Source: Micromonospora echinospora (GTDB lineage Bacteria > Actinomycetota > Actinomycetes > Mycobacteriales > Micromonosporaceae). Taken from it: a stretch of 64,000 nt of DNA. A program made the position numbers and the translations under genes. Numbering within the stretch: position 1 is the stretch's first letter; the number at the start of each line of letters is the position of its first letter. Location of the stretch: positions 5,843,001-5,907,000 of the forward strand of contig NZ_LT607413.1 in the NCBI RefSeq assembly GCF_900091495.1. The letters are read 5' to 3'. Shown here piece by piece: positions 4,070 to 64,000 of this stretch. Under the pieces are notes generated by a model. It was given only the letters and a program-made list of their open reading frames with translations, was not told the DNA's origin and made no database searches.

Positions 4070-6055
4070 TCAGCGGTGGCCGGCGGTCGTCCGGACGCCG
4101 CCCCTCGGCCGCGGAGTCGGTGCCGTCGAGGTGACCCGGTTGGCCCCGGCCTCGACGGTGAAGGTGTACTGCGTGCTCATGGAGCGGGTGCCGGCGGCCG
4201 TGACGCTGCGAACGGCCAGTCGGTTCGTGCCGGTTCCCGTCGGCGTCCAGGTCAGCGTGGCGGTGCCGTCGGGCTGGGCGGCGATCGTGACGTACGGGCC
4301 GTAGTTCATCGAGTATTCGTACGCCGTCGTGCCGGTCAGGCGCGGCGTGAAGCTGAACGTGCCCGTGGCGAGGGGGCCGCTGCCGGTGGCCGGGAAGTCG
4401 GTCGAGGTGACCCGGGGTCCGTCCACGACCGACCAGGACGTGCCGCCCTGCTCGGTCCGCACCCCGGCGGCGTCGCGCGCGACGACGGTGACGTAGTGGT
4501 AGCCACCCTTGGTCGAGGTGAATCCGAAGGTGACGCTGCCGTCGGCGGCCGGTGCGAGGACCTGCTTCGTGGCCTCGTCGCCGTTGAGCGTGGCCACGTA
4601 CTCGACGACGTTCGCCATCCGGGTGCGGGCCGTGAAGGTGGCCGGCGTTCCCACGTCGGTGCCGCCGGTGCGGGTCACCGTGGGCGCCGCTCCGTCGACC
4701 GAGACGGAGGTCCAGCGCGGTTCGGAGAGGGTGCCGTCCGTGCTCCGGCTCTGGAAGCGGAGGCCGATGACACTGGTTCCGGTGGCCGTCCAGGTGAGGT
4801 CGGCGGTGCCGTCCGCGCGGGCCGGCACGGTGATCTTCTCGACGGGCGGTTCCGTCAGGCCCGAGTGCTGCGGCCAGTAGAGGTACGCCTCGACCTGGGG
4901 TGCCCGGGGCGCGAGGTGGAACGTGAGCGACGAGCCGATCGTCACGCCCCGGTCGGTGTCCCCGGTGAGCCTGGGACCGTTGTCGACGGTGAACGCATAG
5001 GCGCGGGGAGCGTGTGCCGTGCCGTCGTGGGTGACGCTGTGGACGTGGAGGGTCTGCCGGCCCGCGCGGGTGGGGGCGATCATGACCGTCGCCGTCCGGT
5101 CGGCGCCGAGCGGCGCCGTCCCCGACGGCCCGTCCTCGTCGATCCGCCAGACGAACGACGCCGTGCCGGTGACGGTGGCGGTCAGCTCGAACGCCCCGGG
5201 CACCCCGACGTTGTAGTTGAGGTTCGATCCCCAGTCCGGGTACGCGGCCGAGAAGATCGCCGGGCGGGTCTCCCTGACGTAGAACTCGTGGTAGGCCGCC
5301 CCGGACCAGTTCCCGGCTCGGTCGACGGCGTGGACGGCCAGCGAGTGGTGGCCGGCCGCCCGGGGAGTCCACCCGATGGTCGCCGGCCCGCCGAGGGCAT
5401 CCGTGTCCACCAGGGCGTAGTCGGAGTCGTCGCTGAGCTCGGCGGAGTGGAACCGGTAGCGGTAGCCGACGGTGTCGTCACTGGCCGAGGTGAGCGTGAA
5501 CGCGCCCGGCACGCCGATCGCGCCGCTGGCGTCGTCCCAGCTTCCCGCCGGATACACGGCGGAGGTGACGGTCGCTGCCGGGCCACCGGTGCGGTCGACG
5601 GTGAAGTGGCAGGTGCTGCTCCACGGCGACGCGTCCGTGCCGTCGAGGACGCGCACCCGCCACGCGTACGTGACACCGTCGAGTTGCTTCGACTCGTCCT
5701 CGAGTTGGACGTAGACCTGGTCGCTCTGCTCGCCGACGTTCCGGAGCCACTGCTGCGGCTGTTCGGGCGTGGTGGTGTCCCACACCTGGAACTCGGCCTG
5801 CAGGCCGGTTTCCTCGCTGGTACGGCTGAAGGTGCCCCGCAGCACGACGGCCTGGGCGTCGTTGAGCCTGCTCGGGCTCAGGTGCGGTCCCGGCGCGGCC
5901 GTGGCGCAGGGCTGGTCGGCCGTCCGCAGATCGGTGGGCGCGGTCACCGCCGCGGCGGCCGGAACCGCCGCCAGCCCCGCCGCCAGTGCGCAGCTGAGCG
6001 TCGATGCCACGACCAGCACCGTGGTCCGGCGATGGGCTCGCGAGAATGAAGGCAA
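4070..6055 (-). CDS. Secreted protein made of Ig-like/fibronectin-type repeats, function unknown
   Basis: I do not recognise a catalytic domain. The start chosen is TTG 6055, because GGGGAG lies 6 bp upstream and the protein then opens with a textbook signal peptide (PSFSRAHRRTTVLVV..., cleaved near AAAAV); ATG 6094 is the alternative. Of 661 residues the first third holds a longer beta-rich unit (VVLRGTFSRTSEETGLQAEFQVWD). The rest is a string of roughly 90-100-residue beta-sandwich repeats, each starting near G-x-P-G-A/T-F-x-L/F-T and ending in phrases such as HSLAVHAVDRAGN, TLHVHSVTHDG, YHYVTVVARDAAG, NRLAVRSVTAAG and a tail like YTFTVE. Such proteins are exported and usually bind surfaces or glycans; that role is inference. 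No sortase or lipobox signal is visible. It converges on the cellulase gene. Confidence 0.75.
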   Translation of the reverse strand: MPSFSRAHRRTTVLVVASTLSCALAAGLAAVPAAAAVTAPTDLRTADQPCATAAPGPHLSPSRLNDAQAVVLRGTFSRTSEETGLQAEFQVWDTTTPEQPQQWLRNVGEQSDQVYVQLEDESKQLDGVTYAWRVRVLDGTDASPWSSTCHFTVDRTGGPAATVTSAVYPAGSWDDASGAIGVPGAFTLTSASDDTVGYRYRFHSAELSDDSDYALVDTDALGGPATIGWTPRAAGHHSLAVHAVDRAGNWSGAAYHEFYVRETRPAIFSAAYPDWGSNLNYNVGVPGAFELTATVTGTASFVWRIDEDGPSGTAPLGADRTATVMIAPTRAGRQTLHVHSVTHDGTAHAPRAYAFTVDNGPRLTGDTDRGVTIGSSLTFHLAPRAPQVEAYLYWPQHSGLTEPPVEKITVPARADGTADLTWTATGTSVIGLRFQSRSTDGTLSEPRWTSVSVDGAAPTVTRTGGTDVGTPATFTARTRMANVVEYVATLNGDEATKQVLAPAADGSVTFGFTSTKGGYHYVTVVARDAAGVRTEQGGTSWSVVDGPRVTSTDFPATGSGPLATGTFSFTPRLTGTTAYEYSMNYGPYVTIAAQPDGTATLTWTPTGTGTNRLAVRSVTAAGTRSMSTQYTFTVEAGANRVTSTAPTPRPRGGVRTTAGHR

Positions 6056-6460
6056 GTTGGTCTCCCCGTGACGGAACGATTCGTGGTCACCCATCGAAGA
6101 GGATCGCACGCCTGCGTGACCACGGAAGCCCCGTTCGGCGTCGCGCGGACGACGGCACCGCATCCTGCGCCCGCCGGGTGACACGCGACCGTCGCCGGCG
6201 TCGACAAGAACTTCGAGAGTGCCGCGCCAAGACCTACCTGGAGTTCAACGTGCTCGCCCGGGACTTCGCGATCGGGATAACCCCGGAGTTGTTTTCCGGC
6301 GTTGCGGCCACCTGCTTCGCCCGTCCGTCCACGTGAGCCCCGACCGTCCGCGCCGGCACGGGCCACGGGCATTCCTGCGACCCGGCGAACCCCGATTACG
6401 GCAAGATTATTACATTGTCGAGCATGGATTAACTGGCTGACTCGTGGCATTGTTGCCCGC
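6056..6460. other. Divergent intergenic region, AT-rich near 6400
   Basis: About 400 bp between the secreted Ig-like protein (leftwards) and the enolase-superfamily gene (rightwards). The stretch 6398-6435 (aagattattacattgtcg and following) is the most AT-rich and is the likely promoter zone for the rightward operon. I see no tRNA, palindrome or convincing small gene. Confidence 0.4.
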
Positions 6461-9936: not shown

Positions 9937-10350
9937 GACGGATCACTCCTCTGTGCTCGGTCGGGACGGGCCGCGATGGTGGGCGGCCGCAGCAGTGGAT
10001 GGCGCGATCGTGCCCGGATTAGGGCGAGCGCAGACACTATATTTACACTAGCAGATACATAATGGGAGGGACGTGGCCTGTCTTTCCGTCATGCGGTACA
10101 TCAGGTGTGCATTTCGTGGAAGCGGGACCCTGAATCCTCGCCCATTGGATGCCGTGCCCTGGGTGATGGTATGGTTCCGAGTCGACGGGGATTCATGCCA
10201 GTCACGCTAAGACTCGTATGGATGAGTGTGCGTCCATCGAATTGATCTTCAGATTGGCATCCGCTGCGGAATTCCGGCCTCCTGTGGAGGGCTTTCCGCG
10301 CCGTCGTGCGACCTGTTGTGCGTCCGCCGCCGTACGAATCGGAGCTGCCG
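9937..10350. promoter_or_regulatory. Divergent control region with tandem ACACTA repeats
   Basis: 414 bp between the PLP gene (left) and the methyltransferase-ligase operon (right), without a credible gene. It has an abrupt AT-rich core at 10031-10065. ACACTA occurs at 10034-10039 and again at 10045-10050, exactly 11 bp apart, so both copies lie on one helix face. Read on the minus strand the first copy overlaps TATAGT, a possible -10 for the PLP gene. Direct repeats at 11-bp spacing are what SARP-type activators bind, but the heptamer does not match one I know. Confidence 0.4.
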
Positions 10351-11109
10351 ATGGAGTGGTTTGAAGACGACACGTTCTGGGTGGACTTCGCGGGAGCCCT
10401 GTTCGCTCCCGCCCGCCGGCAGGAGGCGGCGAACTGGGTGGCGACCTCACCGCTGCTGGACCTGCCGGCCGGCGCCGCGGTGCTCGACCTGGGCTGCGGC
10501 CCCGGGACGTACGCCGTCCCGCTCGCCGAACGCGGCGCCCGGGTCACCGGGGTGGACCTCAGCCAGGCGATGCTGGACCGCGCGCGGGAGGCGACCGAGG
10601 CGGGCGGGCTGAAGGTCCGCCTGGTCCGCGCCGACATGCGGGAGTTCGTCGAGCCGGACTGCTACGACCTGGTCATCAGCATGTACACGTCCTTCGGCTA
10701 CTTCGCCGACCCGGCGCAGAACCAGCGCGTGCTGGACCACGCCCGGCGGAGCCTGGTGCCCGGCGGTCGCCTGCTGCTGGACCTGTTCAGCAAGGAGATA
10801 TTCGCCCGCTGGGCCGGCGTCCCGAAGGTGGTGGACGTCGACGGCGGTTCCCTGTTCATGCGGGACACCATCCTGGACGACTGGACCCGGTTCCGCAGCG
10901 ACTGGACCCTCGTGCAGGGCGACACCGCCCGGCACGGGTTCTTCGAGCAGTTCGTCTACAGCGCCGCCGAGATCCGCGCCATGCTGACCGCCGCCGGCTT
11001 CACCGGGATCCGCTGCTTCGGCGGGTTCGCCGCAGAGCCGTACGACAACCACGCGAAACGACTGGTCGTGGAGGCGATCCGCCCGCTGGACGCCGAGGAG
11101 GCACCGTGA
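10351..11109 (+). CDS. Class I SAM-dependent methyltransferase
   Basis: 252 residues from ATG 10351, with CGGAGC about 6 bp upstream. Motif I is VLDLGCGPGTYA (near 50), followed by VTGVDLS (motif II acidic loop) and RADMREF (post II), as in small-molecule methyltransferases. The N-terminus MEWFEDDTFWVDFAGALF is typical of a widespread family of 240-260-residue enzymes of unknown substrate, with a C-terminal beta-sheet region seen also in glycine/sarcosine-type N-methyltransferases. It overlaps the ATP-grasp gene by 4 bp (GTGA), so translation is coupled and both act in one pathway. Methyl acceptor unknown. Confidence 0.8.
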   Translation: MEWFEDDTFWVDFAGALFAPARRQEAANWVATSPLLDLPAGAAVLDLGCGPGTYAVPLAERGARVTGVDLSQAMLDRAREATEAGGLKVRLVRADMREFVEPDCYDLVISMYTSFGYFADPAQNQRVLDHARRSLVPGGRLLLDLFSKEIFARWAGVPKVVDVDGGSLFMRDTILDDWTRFRSDWTLVQGDTARHGFFEQFVYSAAEIRAMLTAAGFTGIRCFGGFAAEPYDNHAKRLVVEAIRPLDAEEAP

Positions 11110-12329
11110 CCATCGCGCTCATCGAGGCCCTCACCTTCGGACTGGCCCACCTGCGGGACGCCGCCGCCGAGGAGGGACACCGGCTGTGCCTGCTCACCGG
11201 GAACCGGGCGGTGTACTCGTACGAACTCGACCGGCTGGGGCCGGACGACCTGACGGTGATCGACGTCGACACCACCGACGTCGCGGCCTGCGCTGCGGTC
11301 CTCGACCGGATCCCCGACCTGGCCGGGCTGGTCAACTCCACCGACACCTGGATGCTGCCCGGGGCGGAGCTGGCCGAACGGTTCGGCCTGGCCACCCTCG
11401 GCCTGGACACCGCCCGTACCCTGCGGGACAAAGCCGAGGTGCGTAACCTGCTGCACCGGGCCGGACTGAGCCGGGCCGGCGCGATCCGGGTGGAGCCGAC
11501 GGCCGAGGCGGTCAGCGCAGCGGTCGCGGCGATCGGCCACCCCGTGATCGTGAAGGACTCGGCGGGCACCTCCTCCCGTTCGGTCTGGTTGATCCGCGAC
11601 GACGACGAACGCGACCGGGCCGTCCGCCAGGTCGCCGACGCCACCCTGATGGGTTCGCACCTCGTCGCCGAACCGTACTTCCCCGGTCCCGTCTACAGCG
11701 CCGAGACGGTGACCGGGGAGGGACGCACCAGGCTGCTCGGGGTCGGGGTGCACATCCACACGCCGGAACCGGTCCGGCGCGAGGAGGCCGTCGCCTTCCC
11801 GGTGGCCTTCCCCGCCGAGGAGTTCGCGCACCTAAAGACCTGGATCGGCAAGGTCCTCGACGCGGTCGGGTTCTCGTCCGGGATCGCCCACACCGAGTTC
11901 GCCCGCACCCCGGACGGCCCGGAGGTGGTGGAGGTCAACGGACGGATCGCCGGGGCGGTCATCGGGGAGATGATGTGCCGCTCCCTGGGGACCAACGTGT
12001 ACCGCGCGGTGATCGACGCCGCCCTCGGTCGCCGGCCCCGGCTGCTGGACGTACCGCTGTCTCCCGGACCCGGCTACGGCATGACCTTCCTGCACCCCCC
12101 GGCGCCGGGCCGCCTCGCCGGCTGGCGCGGGCCGGAACGGCTCGGGCTCTTCCCCGGGCGGCCCGAGTTCTATCCGACCGCCCGGATCGGGGACCGGATC
12201 GTCCACCTCGCCGACCAGCGGGGCTGCACCGCCCTCGTGTTGGCCGAGGGGGCCACCGCCGAACTGGGCCTCTACCACTCGCTGGCCGCCGCCGGCACCG
12301 TCACCCACGACATGCGACCGCTGGACTGA
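11106..12329 (+). CDS. ATP-grasp carboxylate-amine ligase
   Basis: 407 residues from GTG 11106, with GAGGAGG upstream in the end of the methyltransferase gene. The central ATP-grasp fold shows the pre-grasp region (about 1-95), the lysine and glycine-rich loop VIVKDSAGTSSRSVWLI (near 150), a hinge LVAEPYFPGPVYSAETV, and the metal-binding FARTPDGPEVVEVNGRIAG, where Glu and Asn hold Mg-ATP. Family members form amide or peptide bonds through an acyl-phosphate (carnosine synthase-like, D-Ala-D-Ala ligase-like, BacD-like). Placed between two methyltransferases and near an epimerase, it probably joins two amino-acid-like units. The substrates cannot be told from sequence. Confidence 0.85.
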   Translation: MTIALIEALTFGLAHLRDAAAEEGHRLCLLTGNRAVYSYELDRLGPDDLTVIDVDTTDVAACAAVLDRIPDLAGLVNSTDTWMLPGAELAERFGLATLGLDTARTLRDKAEVRNLLHRAGLSRAGAIRVEPTAEAVSAAVAAIGHPVIVKDSAGTSSRSVWLIRDDDERDRAVRQVADATLMGSHLVAEPYFPGPVYSAETVTGEGRTRLLGVGVHIHTPEPVRREEAVAFPVAFPAEEFAHLKTWIGKVLDAVGFSSGIAHTEFARTPDGPEVVEVNGRIAGAVIGEMMCRSLGTNVYRAVIDAALGRRPRLLDVPLSPGPGYGMTFLHPPAPGRLAGWRGPERLGLFPGRPEFYPTARIGDRIVHLADQRGCTALVLAEGATAELGLYHSLAAAGTVTHDMRPLD

Positions 12330-12348
12330 CCCCGACAGGAGGCGCACC

Positions 12349-13095
12349 ATGAGGAACTACGGACCGGACACCTACGGCGAGACCAACGCCGACGTCTACG
12401 ACGAGTGGCATGCCGACCTCGACCCGGCGGACGCCGTCCGCTGCCTGGAGGAGTTGATCAAGGAGGGACCGGCGGGACCGGTCCTCGAACTGGCGGTGGG
12501 CACCGGCCGGGTGACCATACCCCTGGCCGAGCGGGGAGTCGACCTGCGGGGCGTCGACGCCTCCGAGGCCATGGTCGCCATCATGCGCGCCAAGCCCGGC
12601 GGCGATCGGATCCCGGTCACCATCGGCGACATGGCCGACGTCGACCCGGGGACCGACGACCAGTTCGCCATGATCTTCGTCGTCTTCACCACCTTCTTCT
12701 TCCTCATGAGCCAGGAGGAGCAGGTCCGCTGCTTCGCCAACGTCGCCCGGCGACTGGTGCCCGGTGGCCGGTTCGTCCTGGAGTGCCTGGTGCCGGACAT
12801 GGCCCGTTACCAGCGCAACCAGAGCGTCGACGCCCACCGGGTCGACCAGGACCACGTACGCCTGGTCGCGGTCCGGCACGACCCGGTCGACCAGCGCTTC
12901 GACGGCCAGCACATCCTGATCAGCGACGAGGGGATCCGCCTCGCCCCGGTCTCCATGCGGTACGCCTGGCCCTCGGAACTCGACCTGATGGCCCGCCTCG
13001 CCGGGCTCGAACGCCGTCATCGCTGGGGCGGCTGGCGCGGCGAGCCCTACCTCGGCAGCGGCACCCACGTCACCGTCTACGAGAAGCCCGCCTGA
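12349..13095 (+). CDS. Class I SAM-dependent methyltransferase (second)
   Basis: 248 residues; AGGAGG ends 7 bp before ATG 12349, itself 19 bp after the ligase stop. Motif I reads VLELAVGTGRVTIPLA and motif II LRGVDASEAMVA, with IGDMADV after it. The pattern LELAVGTGR is common in actinobacterial methyltransferases with low sequence constraint on substrate. It differs clearly from the enzyme at 10351 and is not a recent duplicate. Third gene of the methyltransferase-ligase-methyltransferase run; a 203-bp gap with no obvious terminator follows before the binding protein. Confidence 0.8.
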   Translation: MRNYGPDTYGETNADVYDEWHADLDPADAVRCLEELIKEGPAGPVLELAVGTGRVTIPLAERGVDLRGVDASEAMVAIMRAKPGGDRIPVTIGDMADVDPGTDDQFAMIFVVFTTFFFLMSQEEQVRCFANVARRLVPGGRFVLECLVPDMARYQRNQSVDAHRVDQDHVRLVAVRHDPVDQRFDGQHILISDEGIRLAPVSMRYAWPSELDLMARLAGLERRHRWGGWRGEPYLGSGTHVTVYEKPA

Positions 13096-13298
13096 CCGTC
13101 GCCCGGACCGTGTCCCGCCGGCCCGCCCGGCTAGCGGGGCACGACTCCGTCACCACCTGCGGAAGGCGGGGGAACGGCCACCGTTCGGTGGAATCGCGTC
13201 GTCGCCGGGAACCCGGCCGCCGTGCCGAGCGACTGGAGGGACAGCGTCCGCGACAGCCGTCCGGACCGTCGGACCGGCACAGGCGGCGGAGGAACCCG

Positions 13299-14294
13299 AT
13301 GACCCGACCACGGTGGACGATCGCGGCGCTCGTCGTCGCGCTGACCCTGGTGGCCGCCGGCTGTGGTGCCCGGGTCGAGCCGGAGCGCCCGCGCGGCTCG
13401 GCCGCCCCGCCGGTCACGGTGGTCAACTGCGGCCGGGAGGTGACCTACGGCGGCGTCCCCGAGCGGGCGGTCGTGTACGACGTCGGCATGTCCGAGATGA
13501 TGTTCTCGTTGGGCCTGGCACCCCGCACCCGGGGTTGGGTGGCGAACCGGGTCTACGGCGGCATCGACACCTCCGCCTACCGGCGGGACTTCGAGCGGGT
13601 CGACCGGCTGGGCGACAGCCGGATCAGCCTGGAGATCGTGCTCCGGGCCGGGGCCGACTGGGTCTTCGCCGGCCACAACCAGGGCTTCGTGGAGTCCCGG
13701 GGCATCACCCCGGCGATCCTCGCCGGCCACGGCATCGGCAGTTACGTCCTCACCGAGACCTGCGGCGGAGCCGGTGGCCCGGCCGACCGCGTGACACCCC
13801 TCGACGGGGTGTACACCGACTACCGGAACCTCGGCCGGATCTTCGGGGTGTCCGCACGGGCCGAGGAGGTGATCGCCGGCATGCGGCGGGACTTCGCCGC
13901 CGCCTCGGCCGGGAAGCCGGCCGACCCGGCCCGGATCCTGGTGTCCGACGTGTACGAGGAGAAGCCCTACGTGGCCGGCGCCGCCAGCGTCGCCACCGCG
14001 ATCGTCGAGCAGGCCGGTGGCCGCAGCGTCACCGACGACCTCGACCGGACATGGGACAGCGTGGGCTGGGAGACCGTGGTGGCCGCAGACCCCGAGGTCA
14101 TCGTCATCGTGGACTACGGGGTGTCGTACGAGGAGAAACGGGCCGCCCTGATGCGGACCCCGGCGATGAGGAACGTGACCGCCGTGCGGGAGGGAAGGAT
14201 CTTCCGCCTGGAGTTCGCCGACGTGATGGCGGGCCCCCGGGCGGCGACCTCGGCCCGGAAACTCGCGGGGTACCTGCGCTCCGTCGGCCGGTGA
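13299..14294 (+). CDS. Siderophore-type ABC importer, substrate-binding lipoprotein
   Basis: 331 residues from ATG 13299 (GGAGGAACCCG upstream). The signal peptide ends in a lipobox TLVAAGC, so the mature protein is lipid-anchored outside the membrane. The two-lobe class III binding-protein signature is present: PERAVVYDVGMSEMMFSLGLAPRTRG, then RISLEIVLRAGADWVF and the backbone helix, and VVAADPEVIVIVDYG. This family carries ferric siderophores, haem or cobalamin; some actinobacterial members are annotated, tentatively, as F420-0 transporters. It converges, with only 4 bp between stops, on the matching ATPase and permease genes. Substrate unknown; import of the product of the adjacent genes is an inference. 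Confidence 0.82.
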   Translation: MTRPRWTIAALVVALTLVAAGCGARVEPERPRGSAAPPVTVVNCGREVTYGGVPERAVVYDVGMSEMMFSLGLAPRTRGWVANRVYGGIDTSAYRRDFERVDRLGDSRISLEIVLRAGADWVFAGHNQGFVESRGITPAILAGHGIGSYVLTETCGGAGGPADRVTPLDGVYTDYRNLGRIFGVSARAEEVIAGMRRDFAAASAGKPADPARILVSDVYEEKPYVAGAASVATAIVEQAGGRSVTDDLDRTWDSVGWETVVAADPEVIVIVDYGVSYEEKRAALMRTPAMRNVTAVREGRIFRLEFADVMAGPRAATSARKLAGYLRSVGR

Positions 14295-54897: not shown

Positions 54898-55013
54898 GTC
54901 ATGGGTCCACGCGCTGGGCCCATTACCCGCATCTGATGTCCCGGGGGAGGCGGCGGTCGGTTTTCCGTCACCTACGACGTCGCTGAGTGCGATCGTCCGA
55001 ACACGAGGCTACG

Positions 55014-56351
55014 ATGTGCGGACGTTCCCGCCGGAAGGGTCGTCCCCCGTTGCGCCGTGCCGCGATCACCTCCCCCTCGGCCCCGAGTCAGGGGCGTCAC
55101 GCCCCGTCCGGTTCGACGGGGTGGATCCGCCTCGCCCGCGCGGCTGTCCTCGTCGTGACCGGGGTCGGCGCGGCCCTGCTCGCGGTCGCGATCTCCGCTG
55201 CCCCGGCTCGCGCGGAGACCGGCGAGGCTGGTGGAGAGCCCGGGCGCCTCGCCGAGGTGGTGACCCACGTTCGGCAGCTCGGGCGCGGCGAGATTCTCGC
55301 GGTGCCGTCCCGTGAACCCGCCGCCGCGCCGGCCGGGATTCCCCTGCGGGCCGGACGGCCCGCTGTCGACGACCGGAAGCGGCTTCCCGTGGCCCCGGCC
55401 CGATCGGCCCCGACGTCGCCGGCAATCGGGGAGACGCCACTGTCCCGCCGGTCGGACCGGGAGACCGGAACGCGGCCCCGGCCGGAGCCGGTCGTGCCCC
55501 GGATCGTCTCCCGGATCCTGCCGTCGCGCGCCGCGCCGCCGGCAGAGCCGCCGGTCGCGCCGGTCGACGGGCCGGTGCGGCCCCCCGTGTCCGCTCCGCC
55601 GGCCACCCCGGACGGAGCCGCACCCACGCCGGTGACCACCCGGCCCCGGCCCCCGGTTCCCGTCGCGCCACCCCGACCGGCGCCGGACGGCGGGCCGGCC
55701 GGTCCGGTGGACGGGCCCGCCGTGTCCGCGCCGGAACCCGCGTCGCCTCCCGGTCGGATCCCGCTGCCACCCCGACTGGTCGGGGTGCTGGACGGTGCGC
55801 TGCGGCCGATCCTCGATCTGCTCACCGACGTCCTCGGTGGGGTGCTCGCTCCGATCCTCGACCTGCCGGGTGGTGGCGGCGACCCGCCGCTCCCACCGGG
55901 ATCGCCGCCGCCGGCCGCGCCGGTGCCGGCACCCGTGCCCGACGCGCCCGTGCCCGTGCCCGTGCCCGTGCCCGACAGTCCGACGGATGGTCCGCCGGTC
56001 ACGGGTCCGCTCGTCCAGCCCCCCTGGGTCCACAATGGAGTATCGGGTCCGTCGGGTCCGGCGGGGAGCGGCGAGTCCTGGAGCCCGTTGTGGGTGCCCG
56101 GCTCCGGGTCCGGCCACCGGATGGTGCCGGCCGCGCCGACCCTGGACTCCGGCTCGGCGTCCGGCGACTCGTCCGATGTGCCGGTCGCGCCCGGCGACGA
56201 CCGGGTCAGCGGTGACAGCGGCCCCCGGGCCGGCGCGTCCCTACCACCCGAGGCGTCCCACCCGGACCGTACCGTCCGGCACGCTCTCGCCGAGGTGCCG
56301 CCGGCACCTGCCCGGGGCCGATCTCCCACGGTGGCCGCCCGCCCCGGCTGA
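55014..56351 (+). CDS. Secreted or membrane-anchored Pro/Ala-rich protein, function unknown
   Basis: 445 residues from ATG 55014 (GAGG 5 bp upstream), chosen over GTG 54987. A basic N-terminus of about 45 residues precedes a hydrophobic segment, RAAVLVVTGVGAALLAVAIS, and AAPARAETG, a likely signal-peptidase site. The rest is low-complexity Pro/Ala/Gly/Ser sequence, with one short amphipathic region, LVGVLDGALRPILDLLTDVLGGVLAPILDL (about 250-285), and a VPVPVPVPV run. No catalytic domain and no LPXTG seen. Proteins of this make-up are common upstream of developmental or envelope genes in actinomycetes. Any link with the regulators downstream is inference. Confidence 0.65.
   Translation: MCGRSRRKGRPPLRRAAITSPSAPSQGRHAPSGSTGWIRLARAAVLVVTGVGAALLAVAISAAPARAETGEAGGEPGRLAEVVTHVRQLGRGEILAVPSREPAAAPAGIPLRAGRPAVDDRKRLPVAPARSAPTSPAIGETPLSRRSDRETGTRPRPEPVVPRIVSRILPSRAAPPAEPPVAPVDGPVRPPVSAPPATPDGAAPTPVTTRPRPPVPVAPPRPAPDGGPAGPVDGPAVSAPEPASPPGRIPLPPRLVGVLDGALRPILDLLTDVLGGVLAPILDLPGGGGDPPLPPGSPPPAAPVPAPVPDAPVPVPVPVPDSPTDGPPVTGPLVQPPWVHNGVSGPSGPAGSGESWSPLWVPGSGSGHRMVPAAPTLDSGSASGDSSDVPVAPGDDRVSGDSGPRAGASLPPEASHPDRTVRHALAEVPPAPARGRSPTVAARPG
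55946..55974 (+). repeat. GCCCGT tandem hexamer repeat
   Basis: Nearly five copies of GCCCGT in phase with the reading frame, coding for alternating Pro-Val. Copy number could vary between strains by slippage. Confidence 0.8.
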
Positions 56352-56549: not shown

Positions 56550-57167
56550 GTGGTGATCCGCGTTGTCGTGGTGGAGGAGATGGGGCTGCTGCGCGGTGCG
56601 CTCTGTGCCGTGCTGTCCCACGAGGAGGACATGGAGGTGGTGGCGGCGGTCGCGGACGTCGGCGAGGTGCCCGCCGTGGTGCGGCGCACCACGCCGGACG
56701 TCGTCGTGCTCGATCTGCTGCCGGAGTCGCCCGAGTCGCCCGGCCTGGTCCGGACGATCGAGGAGATCGCCGGCCAGGCGCCCAAGGTGGCGGTCCTGGC
56801 GATGAGCTACCGGTGGAGTCCTTCCGTGCTGGAGGCGGCGGTGTCCGCCGGGGCGCGGGGGTTCATCGGCAAGGACGGGCCGCTGGAGGAGTTGGTTCGG
56901 ATGATCCGGTCGCTCGCCGCCGGGGAGCGGGTCATCGACCCGACGGCGGCGGTGGCGGTGCTGAGCCCGCCGAAGAGTCCGTTCACCCCCCGGGAACTGG
57001 ACGTGCTGCGTGCGGCTGCCGAGGGGTTGCCGCTCAAGGAGATCGCCCGCCGGCTCTTCCTGGCGCACGGGACGGTGCGGAATCATCTGTCGGCGATCCT
57101 GCGCAAGACCGGATCCCGTAACCGGATGGAGGCGATCCGCCGCGCCCAGCGCGAGGGCTGGCTCTAG
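56550..57167 (+). CDS. LuxR-type response regulator, RamR/AmfR-like, intact receiver
   Basis: 205 residues from GTG 56550. Receiver residues are conserved: acidic pair Glu9-Glu10, phospho-acceptor Asp55 in VVVLDLL, Lys108 in GFIGKDG. The C-terminal helix-turn-helix is FTPRELDVLRAAAEGLPLKEIARRLFLAHGTVRNHLSAILRKTGSRNR, ending in REGWL. The R-K-T-G-x-R-x-R-x-E-A run with a terminal G-W-L/I is typical of the RamR/AmfR branch. No kinase gene is adjacent. Likely controls the lanthipeptide operon, together with or instead of the next regulator. Confidence 0.85.
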   Translation: MVIRVVVVEEMGLLRGALCAVLSHEEDMEVVAAVADVGEVPAVVRRTTPDVVVLDLLPESPESPGLVRTIEEIAGQAPKVAVLAMSYRWSPSVLEAAVSAGARGFIGKDGPLEELVRMIRSLAAGERVIDPTAAVAVLSPPKSPFTPRELDVLRAAAEGLPLKEIARRLFLAHGTVRNHLSAILRKTGSRNRMEAIRRAQREGWL

Positions 57168-57538: not shown

Positions 57539-58123
57539 GTGATCCGTACCATGCTTGCCCTCGACGGCACGCTGATCCGCGGTGCGTTGGCCCTGGTGCT
57601 CGCCGCCGAACAGGACATCAGCGTGGTGGCCGAGGTGGATCGGGGCGACGAGATCCAGCCCATGCTCTGGACGAAGCTGCCCGACGTGGCGGTGGTCGAC
57701 CTCGACCTGATCGACGACGGCGGGGCCGGCACCGTCGGACCGTGCCCGATGCTGGTGCTGGCCGACCGGCGTCGGGTCCGGGGACTGCACCACGTGCTCG
57801 CCGGCGGGCGGACGGTCGGCGTTCTCGCCAACGACGTCTCACCTCACCGGGTGGTCGACGGTGTGCGCCGGCTCGCCCGGGGAGAGACGGTGGTCGACGC
57901 GGAGCTGGTGCTCGCCGCGCTCACCGCGACCAGCCCGCTCACCGGGCGGGAGACCGAGATCCTGGAGTTGACCGCGGCGGGGGCGACGGTCGCGGAGGTG
58001 GCCGGCTCACTGGGCCTCTCGCCGGGGACGGTACGCAACCACCTCGGCCGGATCGCCCGGAAGGCGGGCGCGCGTACCCGGGTGGAGGCGGTCCGTGTCG
58101 CCCAGGACGCCGGGTGGATCTGA
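57539..58123 (+). CDS. LuxR-type regulator, RamR/AmfR-like, degenerate receiver
   Basis: The GTG at 57539 follows GGGAGGAAATTC; 194 residues. The receiver keeps Asp54 (VAVVDLDL). However, the acidic pair is reduced to Leu8-Asp9 (LALDGTLIRGAL), and the conserved Lys is Asn98 (VGVLANDV), so normal phosphorylation is doubtful; RamR-type regulators are known to work atypically. The DNA-binding half is LTGRETEILELTAAGATVAEVAGSLGLSPGTVRNHLGRIARKAGARTR, ending DAGWI. It converges on the lanthipeptide operon with 88 bp between stops. Probable pathway-specific activator. Confidence 0.85.
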   Translation: MIRTMLALDGTLIRGALALVLAAEQDISVVAEVDRGDEIQPMLWTKLPDVAVVDLDLIDDGGAGTVGPCPMLVLADRRRVRGLHHVLAGGRTVGVLANDVSPHRVVDGVRRLARGETVVDAELVLAALTATSPLTGRETEILELTAAGATVAEVAGSLGLSPGTVRNHLGRIARKAGARTRVEAVRVAQDAGWI

Positions 58124-58211
58124 CGGGACGGCACCGGCCCGATCCGGCCGGTGCCCGGTCCCGGCCGGGGGCGTCCGGAACCAGGTCGGGACGCCGTTGG
58201 CGCGCTTCCCG

Positions 58212-60143
58212 TCAGGCGGGTCCGGTCCGCGCGGGTGAGCCGGCCGGCGGTGACGACGCCGGCAGGTCGTCCCAGTACCCGACCAGTTCCCGGTAGGTGG
58301 CGGACCGGGCGAGCAGCTCCCGGTGCTCACCGAGCACCGGGAGCTCCCCGTCCAGGACCAGCACCCGGTGCGCCCGCAGCGCGGACGTGATCCGGTGGGC
58401 GACCACGACCAGGGTGCCGGGCCGGCGGGCGAAGGCATCCTCGACCAGTGCCTCGGCGGCCGGATCCAGGTGGCAGGTCGCCTCGTCCAGGATGGCCAGT
58501 GGGGCGGGGGCAAGCCAGGCCCGCACCGCCGCGATCACCTGCCGCTCCCCGGCGGAGAGCGCCGTCGGCACCACCGGCGCGTCCAGCCCGCCCAGCCGGC
58601 CGGCCAGGGGCCGGGCACCCAGCGCGTCCAGTGCCGCCGTGAGGACCGCGTCGTCCGCGTCCGGACGCAGGTAGCGCAGGTTCGCCGCGAGCGAGCCGCT
58701 GAAGACGTACGCCTCCTGGGGCACCAGCACCCGCAACCGGGCGAGCCGGTCGGCGTCAACGGTGTCGACCGGCGCACCGGCGATCACCACCGAGCCCGCC
58801 TCGGGACGCACCAGACCGGAGACCAGGGCCGCCAGGGTGGACTTGCCCGCCCCGCTCGGTCCGACCACCGCGAGGTGCTCGCCGGGGGCGAGGGTGAGCG
58901 AGAAATCCGCGAGCACGGGGCGGGCGCGCGGGCCGTACCGGAAGGTCAGCCGGTGGACGTGCAACGCCGGGGTGCCGCCCGGCACGGGCGGGCGTGTCCC
59001 GTCCGCCGACCCCGGTGGCCGACGTCCGGTCACCGGGCCGTGTTCCGTGGTGAACACGTCGTTCCGCCCGGGGCCCGTGGCGGATGCCCCGTTCCGCGTC
59101 GCGCCGCCGTGCTGCGCCGGGACGGTTCCGGCGGGACCGGGCGGGCTGGTGCGCAGGATCCGCTCCAGGGCCACCACGTACCGCAGGCCGCCCCCGCCCA
59201 CCCCCTGCACCAGGGCCCGCAGGGCCGGTTGCAGCCCCGTCGAGACGTAGACCAGCGCGCCGAGCACCGCCCCGGCGGTCACCCCCCGGTCCACCAGCCA
59301 CGACGCGGCGAGCATCAGCACCGCCAACGGCGCCCACCCGCCCAGGCCGAGGCTGAGGCTGCGCAGGGCGGTCATCCGGGCGACGGTCCGCTCGGCGTCG
59401 GCCTGTGTCGCGATCCGCGCCGCGACTCCGGCGACCACCCGGTCCTGCGCGCCGCAGGCGAGCACGTCCCGGTGGCCGGCCAACGCGGTCGCCGCCGCCT
59501 CGCCGAGCGCCTCCCCGGCCCGCACGTAGCGGCGTTGGTGGGCGACCATCGCCGGCAGTCCGGCGACGAACACCACCAGCCCGGCCAGCAGGGGCACGGC
59601 GACCAGGCCGGCGACCAGCGGGGCCAGCGCGACCAGGCCGAGCAGCGCCGAGACAGCGGCGAAGAGGAAACCGCGCACCACCATCAGCAACCCGCCGAAG
59701 GCGTCCCGGACCACTTCGACCTGCTGGGTCAGCCGGGCCACCGCCGCGCTCTCCGACCCGATGCCGCCGGTGGTCGCCGCGCGCAGCGCGCTCCGCACCA
59801 CCCGGTCGGCCAGTTCGTCGCGGAACGGCTCGACCACCGCCCCGAGCGCTCGGTACACCCCGCCGGTGGCTGCCGCGCCGACCAGCATCGCCACCGCCAG
59901 CACGCCGAGCCAGACCAGGCCGGTGCCGAACCGCCCGGCCAGGAACCCCTGGTCCACCGCCCGGGCGACCAGGAAACCGGAGAGCAGCGCCGGCACCGAC
60001 TCGGCGGCCGACCAGCCGGCGAGCCGGCCGAGTTCCCGTCGTCGGGCCCGCAGCGCCCGGCCGGTCTCCCGGAGCACCCCGGCGGGCGGCTGTCGGGAAC
60101 CTGTCGTCGGCGGGGCGTCGTCCCGGGCAGGGGAGTGGGTCAC
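58212..60143 (-). CDS. ABC exporter (membrane + ATPase domains fused), lanthipeptide cluster, RamA/RamB-like
   Basis: 643 residues from GTG 60143, overlapping the preceding ABC gene by 4 bp. Six membrane helices lie in about 45-330. A Pro/Gly-rich insert (about 345-385) precedes the nucleotide-binding domain: Walker A GPSGAGKSTLA, Q-loop VLVPQEAYVFSGSL, signature LSAGERQVIAAVRAW, Walker B LAILDEATCHLD and VVAHRITSAL. The signature L-S-A-G-E is a variant of LSGGE. Half-transporter paired with the gene at 60140, as in ramAB. Confidence 0.88.
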   Translation of the reverse strand: MTHSPARDDAPPTTGSRQPPAGVLRETGRALRARRRELGRLAGWSAAESVPALLSGFLVARAVDQGFLAGRFGTGLVWLGVLAVAMLVGAAATGGVYRALGAVVEPFRDELADRVVRSALRAATTGGIGSESAAVARLTQQVEVVRDAFGGLLMVVRGFLFAAVSALLGLVALAPLVAGLVAVPLLAGLVVFVAGLPAMVAHQRRYVRAGEALGEAAATALAGHRDVLACGAQDRVVAGVAARIATQADAERTVARMTALRSLSLGLGGWAPLAVLMLAASWLVDRGVTAGAVLGALVYVSTGLQPALRALVQGVGGGGLRYVVALERILRTSPPGPAGTVPAQHGGATRNGASATGPGRNDVFTTEHGPVTGRRPPGSADGTRPPVPGGTPALHVHRLTFRYGPRARPVLADFSLTLAPGEHLAVVGPSGAGKSTLAALVSGLVRPEAGSVVIAGAPVDTVDADRLARLRVLVPQEAYVFSGSLAANLRYLRPDADDAVLTAALDALGARPLAGRLGGLDAPVVPTALSAGERQVIAAVRAWLAPAPLAILDEATCHLDPAAEALVEDAFARRPGTLVVVAHRITSALRAHRVLVLDGELPVLGEHRELLARSATYRELVGYWDDLPASSPPAGSPARTGPA

Positions 60144-61864
60144 GGCGTGCCCTCCCCGGCCTGGAAGACCGCCCGGTAGGCCGGGTCCGACCAGAGGAGA
60201 CGGTGTGGGGCGAGGGCCCGCAGCCGTCCGCCGTCGAGCCAGGCCACCAGGTCGGCCGCCGCCGCTGTCGCCGTCCGGTGGGTGACCACCAGGCGGGTAC
60301 GCTCACCGGCCCGCCCGGCGATTGCCCGGGAGACCCGGTGCTCGGTGGCGGTGTCCAGGCTGGACGTCGCGTCGTCGAGGACGAGCAGCCGTTCGGCGGC
60401 GAGCGCGCGGGCCAGCCCCAGCCGCTGCGCCTCGCCTCCGGAGAGCGGCGCCCGGTGCAGCGGGGTGCGGAAGCCCTCCGGCAGGCGGCCCACGCAGTCG
60501 TCCACCGCCGCCGCGCGGGTCGCGGCGAGCACCGGGGGAGTGGCCGGGGCGTCCGGTGGTGGGACCGCGGCGTCGGCGGGCAACGCCAGCCCGACCGCCT
60601 CGTGCACGGTCGCGCCGACCAGGACCGGCCGCTCGAAGGCGTACCCCACCGCGCGGCGCAGCGTCGCCGGGTCGAGCCGGTGCAGCGGCACCCCGTCGAG
60701 CAGCACCTCACCGGCGTCCGGGTCGTGCAGCCGACCGGCCACCGCAGCGAGGGTGGACTTGCCCGACCCGGAGACGCCGACCACGGCGACCGTGCCACCG
60801 GCGGGCACGGTCAGGTCGACCCCGGAGAGGATCGGACGGCCGTCGTCGGCATGGACGGTGACCTCGCGCAACGTCAACTCACCCCACCCCCGGGGCAGGG
60901 ACCGGTCGCCGACCGGGGCCACCGGAAGGGCCAGCGGTTCGGCGAGACGGTGCGCGCCGGCGCGGACCCGGACCAGGCGGTTGAGGGCGGCCACCGCCGC
61001 GCCGAGTCCCGCGCCGAGAGTCGCGTACCGGACGGCGGCCACCAGCTCGCCGGGGGTGAGCCAGCCGGCGGTCAGCCCGTACCCGCCGACGGCGATCACG
61101 GCCAGGGTCAGCAGCGGCGCCACAGCGGCGGTCCGGGCACCCGCGCGGGCCAGCAGCTCCCAGCTGCGGCGGCCGTGTTCGGCCAGCTCGGGCAGGGGTT
61201 CGAGGATCCGTTCCCGCTCCTGGTCGACGGTGCCGGCGGCGGCGACGGTGCGCGCCCCACCCGTCGACTCCAACAGTCGCCCGGCGATCGCGCCGAGGAC
61301 CCGCTGGTAGGCGGTGATCACCGTGGAGGAATCGGTGACGAAGGCACGCAGCAGCACGGTCAGCAGGACCAACCCCGCGAACAGGGTCAGGCCGAGCGCC
61401 GGCGCCAACAGGGTGAGCGCGACGACGCTGCCCAGCGGGGGGATCACCGCGACCGCGCCGAGGACCACCGCGTTGCCGGCCTGCCCGGCGTCGGCGGCCT
61501 GGGCGACCAGCCGGGCGGTCAGGTCGCCCACCGGGTGCCGGCGCGCCTGCCGGACGTCCAGGCGGAACAGGTGGCGGGTCAGCTGGTCGCGCAGCCGGGC
61601 GGTGGCCCGGGCCGCACCGTACCCGGTGGCCAGGTCGCTGAGCGTGTCGGTGGCGATCAGCACCGCCACCAGGACACCGGCGACCAGCGGCCACCAGCGG
61701 GAGCCGTCGCCGAGCGCGGCGTCCACGGCGTGACCGAGAGCGGTGGGCAGGAACAGTTGGGCGGCGGCGCCGAGCAGCGCGACCCCGGCCAGGGCGATCG
61801 TCCAGCCACCGCCGTGCCGCACCGACCGGCGTACCAACCGGTCCCCGGGTGACCGCGTCCCCAT
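60140..61864 (-). CDS. ABC exporter (membrane + ATPase domains fused), lanthipeptide cluster, RamA/RamB-like
   Basis: ATG 61864 follows GGGAGGACGA and is preferred over 61879; 574 residues. Six helices (about 20-300), then Walker A GVSGSGKSTLA, signature LSGGEAQRLGLARAL, Walker B LLVLDDATSSLD and VVTHRTATAA. The Walker B catalytic residue is Asp (D-D-A) instead of Glu, so this half may hydrolyse ATP poorly and rely on its partner, a common asymmetry in heterodimeric exporters. Sits 69 bp downstream of the precursor gene. Confidence 0.88.
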   Translation of the reverse strand: MGTRSPGDRLVRRSVRHGGGWTIALAGVALLGAAAQLFLPTALGHAVDAALGDGSRWWPLVAGVLVAVLIATDTLSDLATGYGAARATARLRDQLTRHLFRLDVRQARRHPVGDLTARLVAQAADAGQAGNAVVLGAVAVIPPLGSVVALTLLAPALGLTLFAGLVLLTVLLRAFVTDSSTVITAYQRVLGAIAGRLLESTGGARTVAAAGTVDQERERILEPLPELAEHGRRSWELLARAGARTAAVAPLLTLAVIAVGGYGLTAGWLTPGELVAAVRYATLGAGLGAAVAALNRLVRVRAGAHRLAEPLALPVAPVGDRSLPRGWGELTLREVTVHADDGRPILSGVDLTVPAGGTVAVVGVSGSGKSTLAAVAGRLHDPDAGEVLLDGVPLHRLDPATLRRAVGYAFERPVLVGATVHEAVGLALPADAAVPPPDAPATPPVLAATRAAAVDDCVGRLPEGFRTPLHRAPLSGGEAQRLGLARALAAERLLVLDDATSSLDTATEHRVSRAIAGRAGERTRLVVTHRTATAAAADLVAWLDGGRLRALAPHRLLWSDPAYRAVFQAGEGTP

Positions 61865-61933
61865 TCGTCCTCCCGACACGCGTGTGCCCCGGGCGGGTAC
61901 GTCTACCCGCCCGGGGCTCGCTTGGTGATTCGA

Positions 61934-62053
61934 TCAGTCGCAGGACGTGACCGACAGCGAGCTGCCCTCGCAGAGGAGCAGGCTCAGCCCACTGGTGTCG
62001 CCGCCGCCGTGGGTGCGGTCGGCCTCCATGCCCTGAAGGTCCAGAAGCGTCAT
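61934..62053 (-). CDS. amfS: SapB/AmfS-type class III lanthipeptide precursor
   Basis: 39 residues from ATG 62053 with GGGGAGGTGATTTGAC directly upstream; too short for routine gene finding. The leader opens MTLLDLQGME, matching the N-L-F/L-D-L-Q-x-M-E box of RamS/AmfS needed for recognition by the synthetase. The core (about 20-39), TSGLSLLLCEGSSLSVTSCD, holds two S-x-x-S-x-x-x-C units (Ser21-Ser24-Cys28 and Ser31-Ser34-Cys38), the pattern for labionin or lanthionine rings. SapB ends ASLLLCGDSSLSITTCN, nearly the same plan. The ATG overlaps the synthetase stop (ATGA). Product: likely a surface-active morphogenetic peptide for aerial growth. Confidence 0.93.
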   Translation of the reverse strand: MTLLDLQGMEADRTHGGGDTSGLSLLLCEGSSLSVTSCD

Positions 62054-64000
62054 GTCAAATCACCTCCCCCCGAGGTCTCGGTCGTCAGGCTCGCCCCCGT
62101 TGGTGAGGGGAGTTCGGGTGCGCCGGCCAGCGGCGCGAGGAAGGGCAGCGTCAGCGGTTCGTCGTGCCGCGCCGCGCCCAGGGCGAACAGCACACCGGCG
62201 GTGCCGGTGGCGAGGTCCATCGAGAGCCGCAGCAGCTTCTCGCCGGGGAAGGCCACCCCGTCGGCGTACGGCATGGCGTGCCAGGCCAGCCGCCGCAGCT
62301 GCGCGTCGAGTTCCTGCCGCTGCTCGGGCGTGCGGGCGGTCGCCGCGAGGTAGGCGACGATTCCCGCCCGGCCCGCGAAGAGGCCGCTCTGCGCGTACAT
62401 CGGGGACCGGGCCGCCTGGTACGCCGCAGCGCTCGCCCGGGCGAACCCGTCGTCGTGGCGGTGCGTCAGGTACTGGTCGATGGCCAGCCCCACACCGACG
62501 CCGCCCTGTCCGAGGTAGGGCATGGTCCGCCAGCCCTCGTTGACCTCAAGGGCGCCGTTCGGGCGTACCACGCACCGACGCAGGTCCTGGCGCAGGGCCG
62601 TGGCGGCGTGCTCCAGCAGCGTCGCGTCCCCGGTCAGCTCGTACAGGCGCACCAGCATCAGCGCCGGCCCGCTCCGACCGCGCAGCAGCCCGGCGTACGG
62701 GTGCACACCACCGCTGATGTCCGGTCCGGGGTCGTCGGCGAGCCGGTCGACCACCCGTTCGGCGGCCTGCCACGCGGCGTCGCGCAGCCCGGACTCCCCG
62801 GTGCGTCCGGCCAGGTCGGCCAGGTTGAGCGCCACTCCTGACAGGCCACTGAGCAGGCTGTGGTCCAGCCGGTCCCAGGGCTCCCGGAGGCAGATCTCGA
62901 CCACGTCCAGCGCGTCCTGCCGGCGGCCTAGCCGCTCCAGCGCGTACGCGACCCCGTGCAGCCCGTCGTAGAAGCCGAGCCGGGTGCCGGAGACCGGGTT
63001 CTTCGCCCGCCGGACCAGCCACTCCTCGTGTTCCGGCCGGCGGCCCGCCCCGGTCTGCGCCAGGGTGTGCAGCACCCCGGCCGCGCCGTACGCGAGGTTG
63101 AGCCCGCCGCTGCGGAACTGCTCGATGTCACCGGGGAAGAGCCGGTCGTTCCGGTCCGGGGTGGCGCTGGCGAGGATCGCCCGGGCGAGCCGGTCCCGGA
63201 CGGTCGGCCAGTCGTCGGCGGCCAGGTCCGGCACGGGCACGCCGGTCGGTACGGAGCCGGCGCCGGTCGCACCCGTCGCGTCGGACCCGGTCTCCGCGGC
63301 GAACGCGGCGGTGATCTCGTCGACCGCCGGGTCGAGGAAGGAGCGGGGGACCGGGAAGTTCTCGGCGATGACGTCGGCCAGGTGCGCGGCCTTCGCCGGG
63401 GAGAGCCGGACCAGCTGGGTCAACGGGAGGAACAGCGCCAGGCGGAGGCAGGCCAGGGCGTACCGGTCGGCGGCCTTGCCCCGGACGTGGCGGGGCGCGG
63501 CGAAACCCTGGTTACGCAGGCCCGGCCGGTGGCTGTCGTCCTCGGCGGCGGCGACCTCGAAGTCGATGAGGGCGATCCGGTCGTCCGGTCGCACCATGAT
63601 GTTGGACATGTGCAGGTCGCCGTAGACCACGCCCCGGTCGTGGATCGCCTGCACGGCGGTCTCGACCTGGGTGTAGACGTCCCGCGCCCACCGGGTGTAC
63701 GCCGCCAGCTTCTCCTCGGTGGCGTCGGCGACGACCAGCGGGTGCCGGTTGGCGAGCACCTTGTTCAGCGGGCGTCCCTCGACGAACTCCAGCGCGAGGA
63801 ACCGGTGCTCGCCGAGGGTGAACTCGTCGTGCAGCCGGGGCAGCTGCGGCAGGTCGGCGAGCCGGCGCAGCATCGCCGCCTCCCGCTCCAGCCGGGCGAC
63901 CGCGTCGGTTCCGTCGGAGTCCAGGCCGGCCAGGGGGCGGGCCTCCTTGAGCACCACCTGCGCGTCGTCGCGGGTGTCCCGCCCCACGTAGAGGCCGCCG
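62050..64000 (-). CDS. lanKC: Class III lanthionine synthetase LanKC (RamC/AmfT-like), N-terminus outside the window
   Basis: About 650 residues are visible; the lyase domain and the kinase start lie beyond 64000. The kinase part begins with a glycine-loop end (GGLYVGRDTRDDAQVVLKEA, with the ATP-binding Lys), then FLALEFVEG, the catalytic loop VVYGDLHMSNIMV and metal loop ALIDFEV. A LanC-like cyclase domain follows (about residues 300-640 of the visible part): LAYGAAGVLHTLAQ, GFYDGLHGVAYAL, LLSGLSGVALNLAD, YLGQGGVGVGLAIDQYL. The zinc ligands (Cys, Cys-His-Gly) of class I/II/IV cyclases are absent, which defines class III. It phosphorylates and dehydrates Ser in the precursor and closes the rings. 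Confidence 0.93.
   Translation of the reverse strand, partial: GGLYVGRDTRDDAQVVLKEARPLAGLDSDGTDAVARLEREAAMLRRLADLPQLPRLHDEFTLGEHRFLALEFVEGRPLNKVLANRHPLVVADATEEKLAAYTRWARDVYTQVETAVQAIHDRGVVYGDLHMSNIMVRPDDRIALIDFEVAAAEDDSHRPGLRNQGFAAPRHVRGKAADRYALACLRLALFLPLTQLVRLSPAKAAHLADVIAENFPVPRSFLDPAVDEITAAFAAETGSDATGATGAGSVPTGVPVPDLAADDWPTVRDRLARAILASATPDRNDRLFPGDIEQFRSGGLNLAYGAAGVLHTLAQTGAGRRPEHEEWLVRRAKNPVSGTRLGFYDGLHGVAYALERLGRRQDALDVVEICLREPWDRLDHSLLSGLSGVALNLADLAGRTGESGLRDAAWQAAERVVDRLADDPGPDISGGVHPYAGLLRGRSGPALMLVRLYELTGDATLLEHAATALRQDLRRCVVRPNGALEVNEGWRTMPYLGQGGVGVGLAIDQYLTHRHDDGFARASAAAYQAARSPMYAQSGLFAGRAGIVAYLAATARTPEQRQELDAQLRRLAWHAMPYADGVAFPGEKLLRLSMDLATGTAGVLFALGAARHDEPLTLPFLAPLAGAPELPSPTGASLTTETSGGGDLT

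Follow-up and report, generated by a model that had tools for sequence, protein, structure and literature searches.

A SapB/AmfS-type class III lanthipeptide locus with tandem RamR-like regulators in Micromonospora echinospora

The right end of a 64,000-nucleotide stretch of the Micromonospora echinospora chromosome (the window; G000:C1:5843001-5907000, from a genome of 7,775,486 bases in a single contig) carries what is very likely, at a probability of about 0.86, a functional SapB/AmfS-type class III lanthipeptide locus, with proposed modification, export, and control by two regulators. The minus strand encodes the lanthionine synthetase LanKC, a precursor peptide, and two ATP-binding cassette (ABC) proteins (ABC 1 and ABC 2), in that order. 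On the plus strand, convergent with this operon, two regulator genes (Reg1 and Reg2) lie in tandem. We demonstrate here the gene content and order, intact reading frames, purifying selection, ring motifs, and a conserved upstream element. The locus is of a known kind, its membership is well supported, and the new details are modest: the regulators are doubled, chaplins are missing, and the core, though altered, is conserved again.

An earlier note, made from the window alone, had described at 57539..64000 the order LanKC-precursor-ABC-ABC with a convergent RamR-like regulator and had likened it to ramCSAB/ramR of Streptomyces. Every part that it named lies where it was placed, and the likeness holds against named Streptomyces-type loci, with precursor and LanKC both over curated cut-offs. 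The interval itself starts too late, missing Reg1, and LanKC runs past the window's edge. A 20-kb flanking stretch (L009, G000:C1:5897001-5917000) was read to extend the right end.

RESULTS

Synthetase, precursor, and transporters

Scored without its first codon, LanKC matched the class III LanKC model NF038151 with 1122.7 bits (cut-off 575) over 833/833 model positions. It contains the Pfam domains RamC_N, Pkinase, and LANC_like, the lyase, kinase, and LanC-like parts that mark class III, and its closest solved structures by sequence are the LanKC relatives 8sap and 9wop. The earlier note had allowed for a stop or frameshift in the N-terminal part that it could not see. The reading frame has no internal stop over 884 amino acids (aa), which, together with the whole-length NF038151 match, rules out a truncated or frameshifted enzyme. 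No second LanKC over the cut-off was found in the M. echinospora genome, where 19 further matches cover the kinase stretch of the model alone. Against four relatives with the locus at the same chromosomal place (G235, G252, G296, and G207), the ratios of nonsynonymous to synonymous substitution rates (dN/dS) for LanKC and ABC 1 were 0.28-0.36. Between M. echinospora and G252, LanKC has a dS of 0.16 and 90% identity.

The precursor belongs to the SapB_AmfS_lanti family (NF033212), with 54.5 bits against a cut-off of 25; against the general class III model NF038159 it scored 27.3 bits, under the cut-off of 30. As expected of a member, it carries two Ser-x-x-Ser-x-x-x-Cys (SxxSxxxC) ring motifs, SGLSLLLC and SSLSVTSC. 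Identity to the relatives is 90% in G235 and 76% in G252. The synthetase, precursor, and two ABC genes run in one direction in the order of a ram/amf operon. The precursor start overlaps the LanKC stop by 4 bases and the two ABC genes overlap likewise by 4 bp, a sign of coupled translation.

ABC 1 passed the Pfam models ABC_tran (72.6 bits) and ABC_membrane (67.9 bits). ABC 2 passed ABC_tran (78.2 bits), and its ABC_membrane match of 20.2 bits is under the cut-off of 28. No NCBIfam transporter model reached its cut-off with either protein. Both genes are conserved in place across the genus and in Streptomyces-type loci. In one family locus (L071, G010), no matched ABC genes lie between LanKC with its SapB-type precursor and the two regulators, all of which are present. 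In L122 (G253), both ABC genes match in several pieces at 10112-13558, owing either to true breaks or to sequencing errors.

Distribution and chromosomal site

A draw of 200 genomes from the family Micromonosporaceae contained the precursor family in 82 (81 over cut-off). Searching with the M. echinospora precursor gave 82 carriers among 160 genomes of the genus, a patchy presence. Loci were fetched from 39 of the latter 82 carriers. The earlier note had proposed a comparison of synteny across Micromonosporaceae, and the gene order is indeed identical in these 39 genus loci over whatever part each contig covers. In L059 and L118, LanKC is cut or lies beyond the contig end; in a few loci, ABC 2 alone or both transporter genes have only piecewise matches. 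For comparison we used a set of named loci, the best 80 of 216 found, with RamS as the first row of the query; the set is hence RamS-like by choice. Titles assign 77 of them to Streptomyces and the rest to Kitasatospora, Streptomycetaceae, or 'Actinobacteria'.

In a LanKC tree of 33 loci, the genus splits into a group with two or more precursors and a group with mostly one, of which M. echinospora is the outer branch; G235, G252, G296, and G207 are not in this tree. In these four genomes, the locus lies beside the same Clp_N and kynureninase genes as in M. echinospora. The Clp_N flank gene was present in 16/16 genomes asked. Seven genomes (five without the precursor and two that carry the cluster at another place) were read around it in 19-kb stretches, and none had the cluster or a kynureninase gene beside it. 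Probably, the locus moved to or arrived at the Clp_N site once in the sublineage of M. echinospora.

An altered core peptide

We surveyed 83 precursors; they come from 52 of the 82 carriers, and some of the loci had been chosen for low score. Both SxxSxxxC motifs are kept in 83/83, and two or three precursor copies occur in 27 of the 52 genomes. The core is nearly invariant in the genus: the pattern S-x-A-S-L-L-L-C-G-D-S-[SG]-L-S-[VIL]-T-T-C fits 77/83. The six exceptions are M. echinospora and G252 (SGLSLLLCEGSSLSVTSCD), G235 (SGLSLLMCDGSSLSVTSCD), G249 (SNASVVLCPISVMSLITC), and G262 and G293 (one GD-to-GN variant each).

M. echinospora and its two relatives G252 and G235 share the core SGLSLL[LM]C[ED]GSSLSVTSCD. 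Compared with the usual core, it has lost Arg/Gln and changed Ala to Leu, GD to EG, Thr to Ser, and Asn to Asp, and it retains the hydrophobic LL[LM] block, both ring motifs, and the leader. Its net charge is -2 versus 0 and its hydropathy 0.71 versus 0.39. The predicted mass, computed as [M+H]+ of TSGLSLLLCEGSSLSVTSCD less four waters, is 1899.88. G296 and G207, whose loci share the chromosomal place of M. echinospora, have near-canonical cores; the change therefore arose inside the sublineage. Once changed, the core was held between M. echinospora and G252, which over 19 codons differ by 1 synonymous and 0 nonsynonymous changes; against G235, however, the differences are 4.5 and 4.5.

In a separate case (L110, G249), the precursor at 9976-10089 has a strongly altered SapB-type core, ASNASVVLCPISVMSLITC, that retains both ring motifs; the rest of the locus is ordinary.

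Tandem regulators

Reg1 matched the Pfam models Response_reg (43.1 bits) and GerE (56.9 bits). Reg2 matched GerE/LuxR (55.7 bits) with no receiver-domain match, and 21 NCBIfam models matched it, all below their cut-offs. When aligned, both proteins resemble DesR/NarL-type proteins along their length. Their identity to ten Streptomyces-type regulators is 34-41%. A tree of 60 regulators, in which several branches are long, placed Reg1 and Reg2 in separate groups, each with several genera, and the Streptomyces proteins firmly with neither. We treat the two as relatives of RamR and do not claim orthology.

For the tree and the residue counts, rows of at most 150 columns were dropped, including Reg2 of L044 and L108, which left 37 Reg1 and 35 Reg2 rows. 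Residues were read at the DesR active-site positions (phospho-Asp, switch Thr/Ser, and Lys). As aligned, genus Reg2 has the phospho-Asp in 35/35 rows, the switch Thr/Ser in 0/35, and the Lys in 0/35; the alignment-dependent counts for genus Reg1 are Asp 25/37, Thr/Ser 32/37, and Lys 31/37, and those for the ten Streptomyces-type regulators are Asp 10, Thr/Ser 3, and Lys 9. By this alignment, the Reg2 receiver is degenerate, keeping the phospho-Asp position and lacking the switch Thr and the conserved Lys. Profile scans recognized no kinase among the scanned neighbor genes of the locus. Reg1 and Reg2 appear to be orphan regulators whose control by phosphorylation is weakened or lost.

The Reg1-Reg2 pair was present in 37 of the 39 genus loci, the remaining two (L054 and L055) being cut by contig ends. 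A convergent pair was also present in 7 of 22 loci from other genera of the family; the others have one, none, or separated regulators. The doubled regulator is therefore common to SapB-type loci of the genus and several sister genera and not peculiar to M. echinospora. Of the Streptomyces-type loci, 68 extend at least 5.5 kb downstream; in 65 of these LanKC-precursor-ABC-ABC is convergent with exactly one regulator, and three have none, as counted by tblastn with Reg1 and Reg2, which a distant regulator could escape. Excerpts of PMC4255298 (the other papers cited below are likewise used in excerpt) describe similar clusters as present in most streptomycetes and sporadic elsewhere, with ramR in streptomycetes only. 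In L108 (G252), Reg2 matches in several pieces at 5663-6243, a true break or a sequencing error.

A conserved element upstream of LanKC

In the window's lineage, a dense conserved block lies about 80-140 bp upstream of LanKC and comprises TGACttttGTCA, GTGCG-N3-CGCAC/T, TGACta, and CACTgg. The corresponding regions in Streptomyces contain GTGCGttCCGCAC, followed after about ten bases by TGAC. In M. echinospora, the element falls beyond the window, at about 64785-64843 in window-equivalent coordinates. We scanned the 250 bp before LanKC for the joint pattern GTGYG-N3-YGCAY-N7..11-TGAC, leaving out L059 and L118, in which the LanKC N-terminus was not matched or not included. The pattern was found in 15/26 loci of the window's lineage (0/520 shuffles), 53/78 Streptomyces-type loci (0/1560 shuffles), and 2/7 other tandem-regulator loci (0/140 shuffles).

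A close form of the element occurs at one place in the M. echinospora genome, before LanKC; the backwards control also gave one match. Across the genus, 142/160 genomes had at least one match, with backwards controls that were lower by eye and of the same order. In all five stretches fetched for a second site (L222-L226; G123, G216, G212, G162, and G236), a symmetric form, GTCAC-N9-GTGCG-N3-CGCAC-N9-TGAC, lies near 2955-3065. In L226 this site adjoins a histidine-kinase/response-regulator pair (HisKA_3; Response_reg plus GerE), and in L224 and L225 a regulator start was seen by eye only. The pattern scan gave no such site in M. echinospora. Given the genus-wide matches and the second site of the same shape in relatives, we dropped the idea of an operator unique to the ram locus. 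The element is best read as a putative operator of the wider DesR/RamR helix-turn-helix kind.

Chaplins and aerial growth

SapB is explained as a helper that, together with chaplins, lets Streptomyces hyphae break the water surface. The earlier note had proposed a search for chaplin and rodlin genes. The chaplin family PF03777 was over its cut-off in 0 of 160 genus genomes, M. echinospora included, with two weak matches under the cut-off. In the draw of 200 family genomes, it was over the cut-off in 119 and in 0 of the 38 genus members. A rodlin search of M. echinospora gave no match, and its control matched nowhere, so absence is not proven.

PMC5765111 reports that none of its Micromonospora strains formed aerial hyphae, though almost half carried a sapB cluster. 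In discussing this, the paper points to earlier accounts of aerial hyphae from some strains and deems a loss of sporulation on aerial hyphae plausible. PMC9011353 lists Micromonospora and Verrucosispora among SapB-precursor matches and calls them aerial-hyphae formers. The earlier note's remark that the role may differ for want of a classical aerial mycelium is thus fair, but the puzzle of a SapB cluster without aerial hyphae is already published (PMC5765111); the aerial hyphae of PMC9011353, and those cited in PMC5765111 itself, count against the remark. A genus in which about half of the species have a SapB-type peptide, no chaplins exceed the cut-off, and aerial mycelium is reportedly scarce or absent lends itself naturally to testing the peptide alone; the altered core of the M. 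echinospora sublineage provides a variant for this.

DISCUSSION

The locus resembles ramCSAB/ramR (SapB) of Streptomyces in gene order, class III LanKC, a SapB-type precursor with two SxxSxxxC motifs, two ABC half-transporters, a convergent LuxR-type regulator, and a similar upstream element. It differs in having two tandem regulators instead of one, only 34-41% identical to the ten Streptomyces-type proteins, and no chaplins over the cut-off in the genome. Its core has Gly-Leu for Arg-Ala, Glu-Gly for Gly-Asp, and an acidic end. The layout of amfTSBA/amfR of Streptomyces griseus is presumably similar; AmfS shares the precursor family by name (NF033212). SapB-type clusters of the same kind are reported from Micromonospora strains, in the same or a neighboring genus (PMC5765111, PMC7918784, PMC9967187, and PMC13140871); the excerpts of these papers describe no core variants, tandem regulators, or chaplin absence. 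In literature searches not aimed at each of them, we did not meet the chaplin absence, tandem regulators, core variant, or operator-like element.

Ring chemistry, export, leader removal, and operator binding we infer as follows. LanKC would bind the precursor through its LLDLQ leader, phosphorylate and eliminate the serines of both SxxSxxxC motifs, and form a single thioether ring, either lanthionine or labionin, in each motif. Export would fall to the two ABC proteins, and a protease encoded elsewhere would trim the leader. The two RamR-like orphan regulators would switch transcription via a compound operator located within ~140 bp upstream of LanKC. The LLDLQ motif resembles the LELQL leader motif of a Bacillus system, whose LanKC grips the leader through it between kinase and lyase domains and whose leader protease lies outside the cluster (PMC10604976).

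Several points weigh against this account. The joint upstream pattern was picked after both alignments had been viewed and is therefore a description, not an independent test. It is missing from 11/26 loci of the window's lineage, 25/78 Streptomyces-type loci, and 5/7 other tandem loci. It is absent from the second genus lineage (0/11; shuffles 0/220), where a looser form fits 8/11 loci and 1/220 shuffles, and from single-regulator family loci (0/15; shuffles 0/300). The same-shape site at a histidine-kinase/regulator pair in relatives means that the element is not RamR-specific. The least certain part is the role: the peptide might be a small amphiphile that covers the surface of colonies or spores in an actinomycete without chaplins.

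The SxxSxxxC motif is also the labionin motif. Furthermore, the synthetase does not reveal the ring type (PMC13380574). Both points favor a labyrinthopeptin- or lipolanthine-like peptide that is merely SapB-like, a reading that we nevertheless consider very improbable: the precursor passes SapB_AmfS_lanti and stays under the cut-off of the general class III model, and the operon comes with two transporters and convergent RamR-like genes. Durhapeptin and rochsin A, class III morphogens from Streptomyces, likewise have class III cores and bear labionin, the ring type being established there (PMC13380574). A relic, retained or passed on and unused in bacteria that raise no aerial hyphae, would suit the patchy presence, the lack of chaplins over the cut-off, and the strains of PMC5765111. 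The genes are intact, however, with dN/dS values of 0.28-0.36 for LanKC and ABC 1, the upstream element is conserved, and about half of the surveyed genomes keep more than one precursor copy, all of which make a relic improbable.

For a functional locus, we suggest only tentatively that the SapB-type peptide of the genus acts by itself, chaplins being absent, as an amphiphile of the surface or spore coat in substrate-borne spores, and that two regulators (a degenerate Reg2 lacking the Lys and a more typical Reg1) form the switch that controls it. The sublineage core would have been rewritten once, then held, and would no longer match the type of its congeners. Alternatively, the altered core may yield a lineage-specific signal or antimicrobial in place of a surfactant coat, which we regard as unlikely. 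Its identity between M. echinospora and G252, while LanKC differs by 10%, and the shift in net charge are in line with such a role, as is a durhapeptin variant whose activity is limited to some Streptomyces carrying related clusters (PMC13380574). Yet durhapeptin is itself a morphogen, so such specificity is compatible with a surface role, and 19 codons are few. The kept hydrophobic block, ring motifs, and leader also speak against a signal or antimicrobial. Hydrophobic core residues are needed for durhapeptin activity, and the SapB/AmfS family counts >4,000 sequences at NCBI (PMC13380574).

Feature coordinates and neighboring genes

Table 1. Features of the locus, in window coordinates
Feature	Position	Strand	Remarks
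LanKC (class III lanthionine synthetase, RamC-like)	62050-64704 window-equivalent (L009 8050-10704); in-window part 62050..64000	-	884 aa, GTG start
SapB/AmfS-type precursor	61937..62053	-	39 aa, MTLLDLQGMEADRTHGGGDTSGLSLLLCEGSSLSVTSCD; two SxxSxxxC motifs
ABC exporter subunit 1 (RamA-like position)	60140..61879	-	579 aa
ABC exporter subunit 2 (RamB-like position)	58212..60143	-	643 aa
Reg2, RamR-like LuxR/NarL-type orphan regulator (putative)	57539..58123	+	194 aa, convergent to operon
Reg1, tandem RamR/DesR-like response regulator	56553..57167	+	204 aa
Perfect 10-bp inverted repeat between convergent operon and Reg2	58130..58155	.	Basis: sequence; fold z

The inverted repeat is a possible two-way terminator, with no T-run present; the fold z around it is -1.88 for a plus-strand stretch and -3.32 for a longer minus-strand stretch. 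An Rfam scan of the 20-kb L009 found no RNA element at the gathering threshold.

Before Reg1, at 54987-56351 on the plus strand, lies a 454-aa open reading frame (ORF) without a Pfam or NCBIfam match. It has 60% identity in G235 and partial matches only in G252, G207, and G296. On the other side, at L009 10921-13266 (window-equivalent 64921-67266, minus strand), is a 781-aa ORF whose C-terminal half is kynureninase. Its N-terminal ~370 aa match no Pfam family, and tblastn rows span its whole length in G235, G252, and G207.

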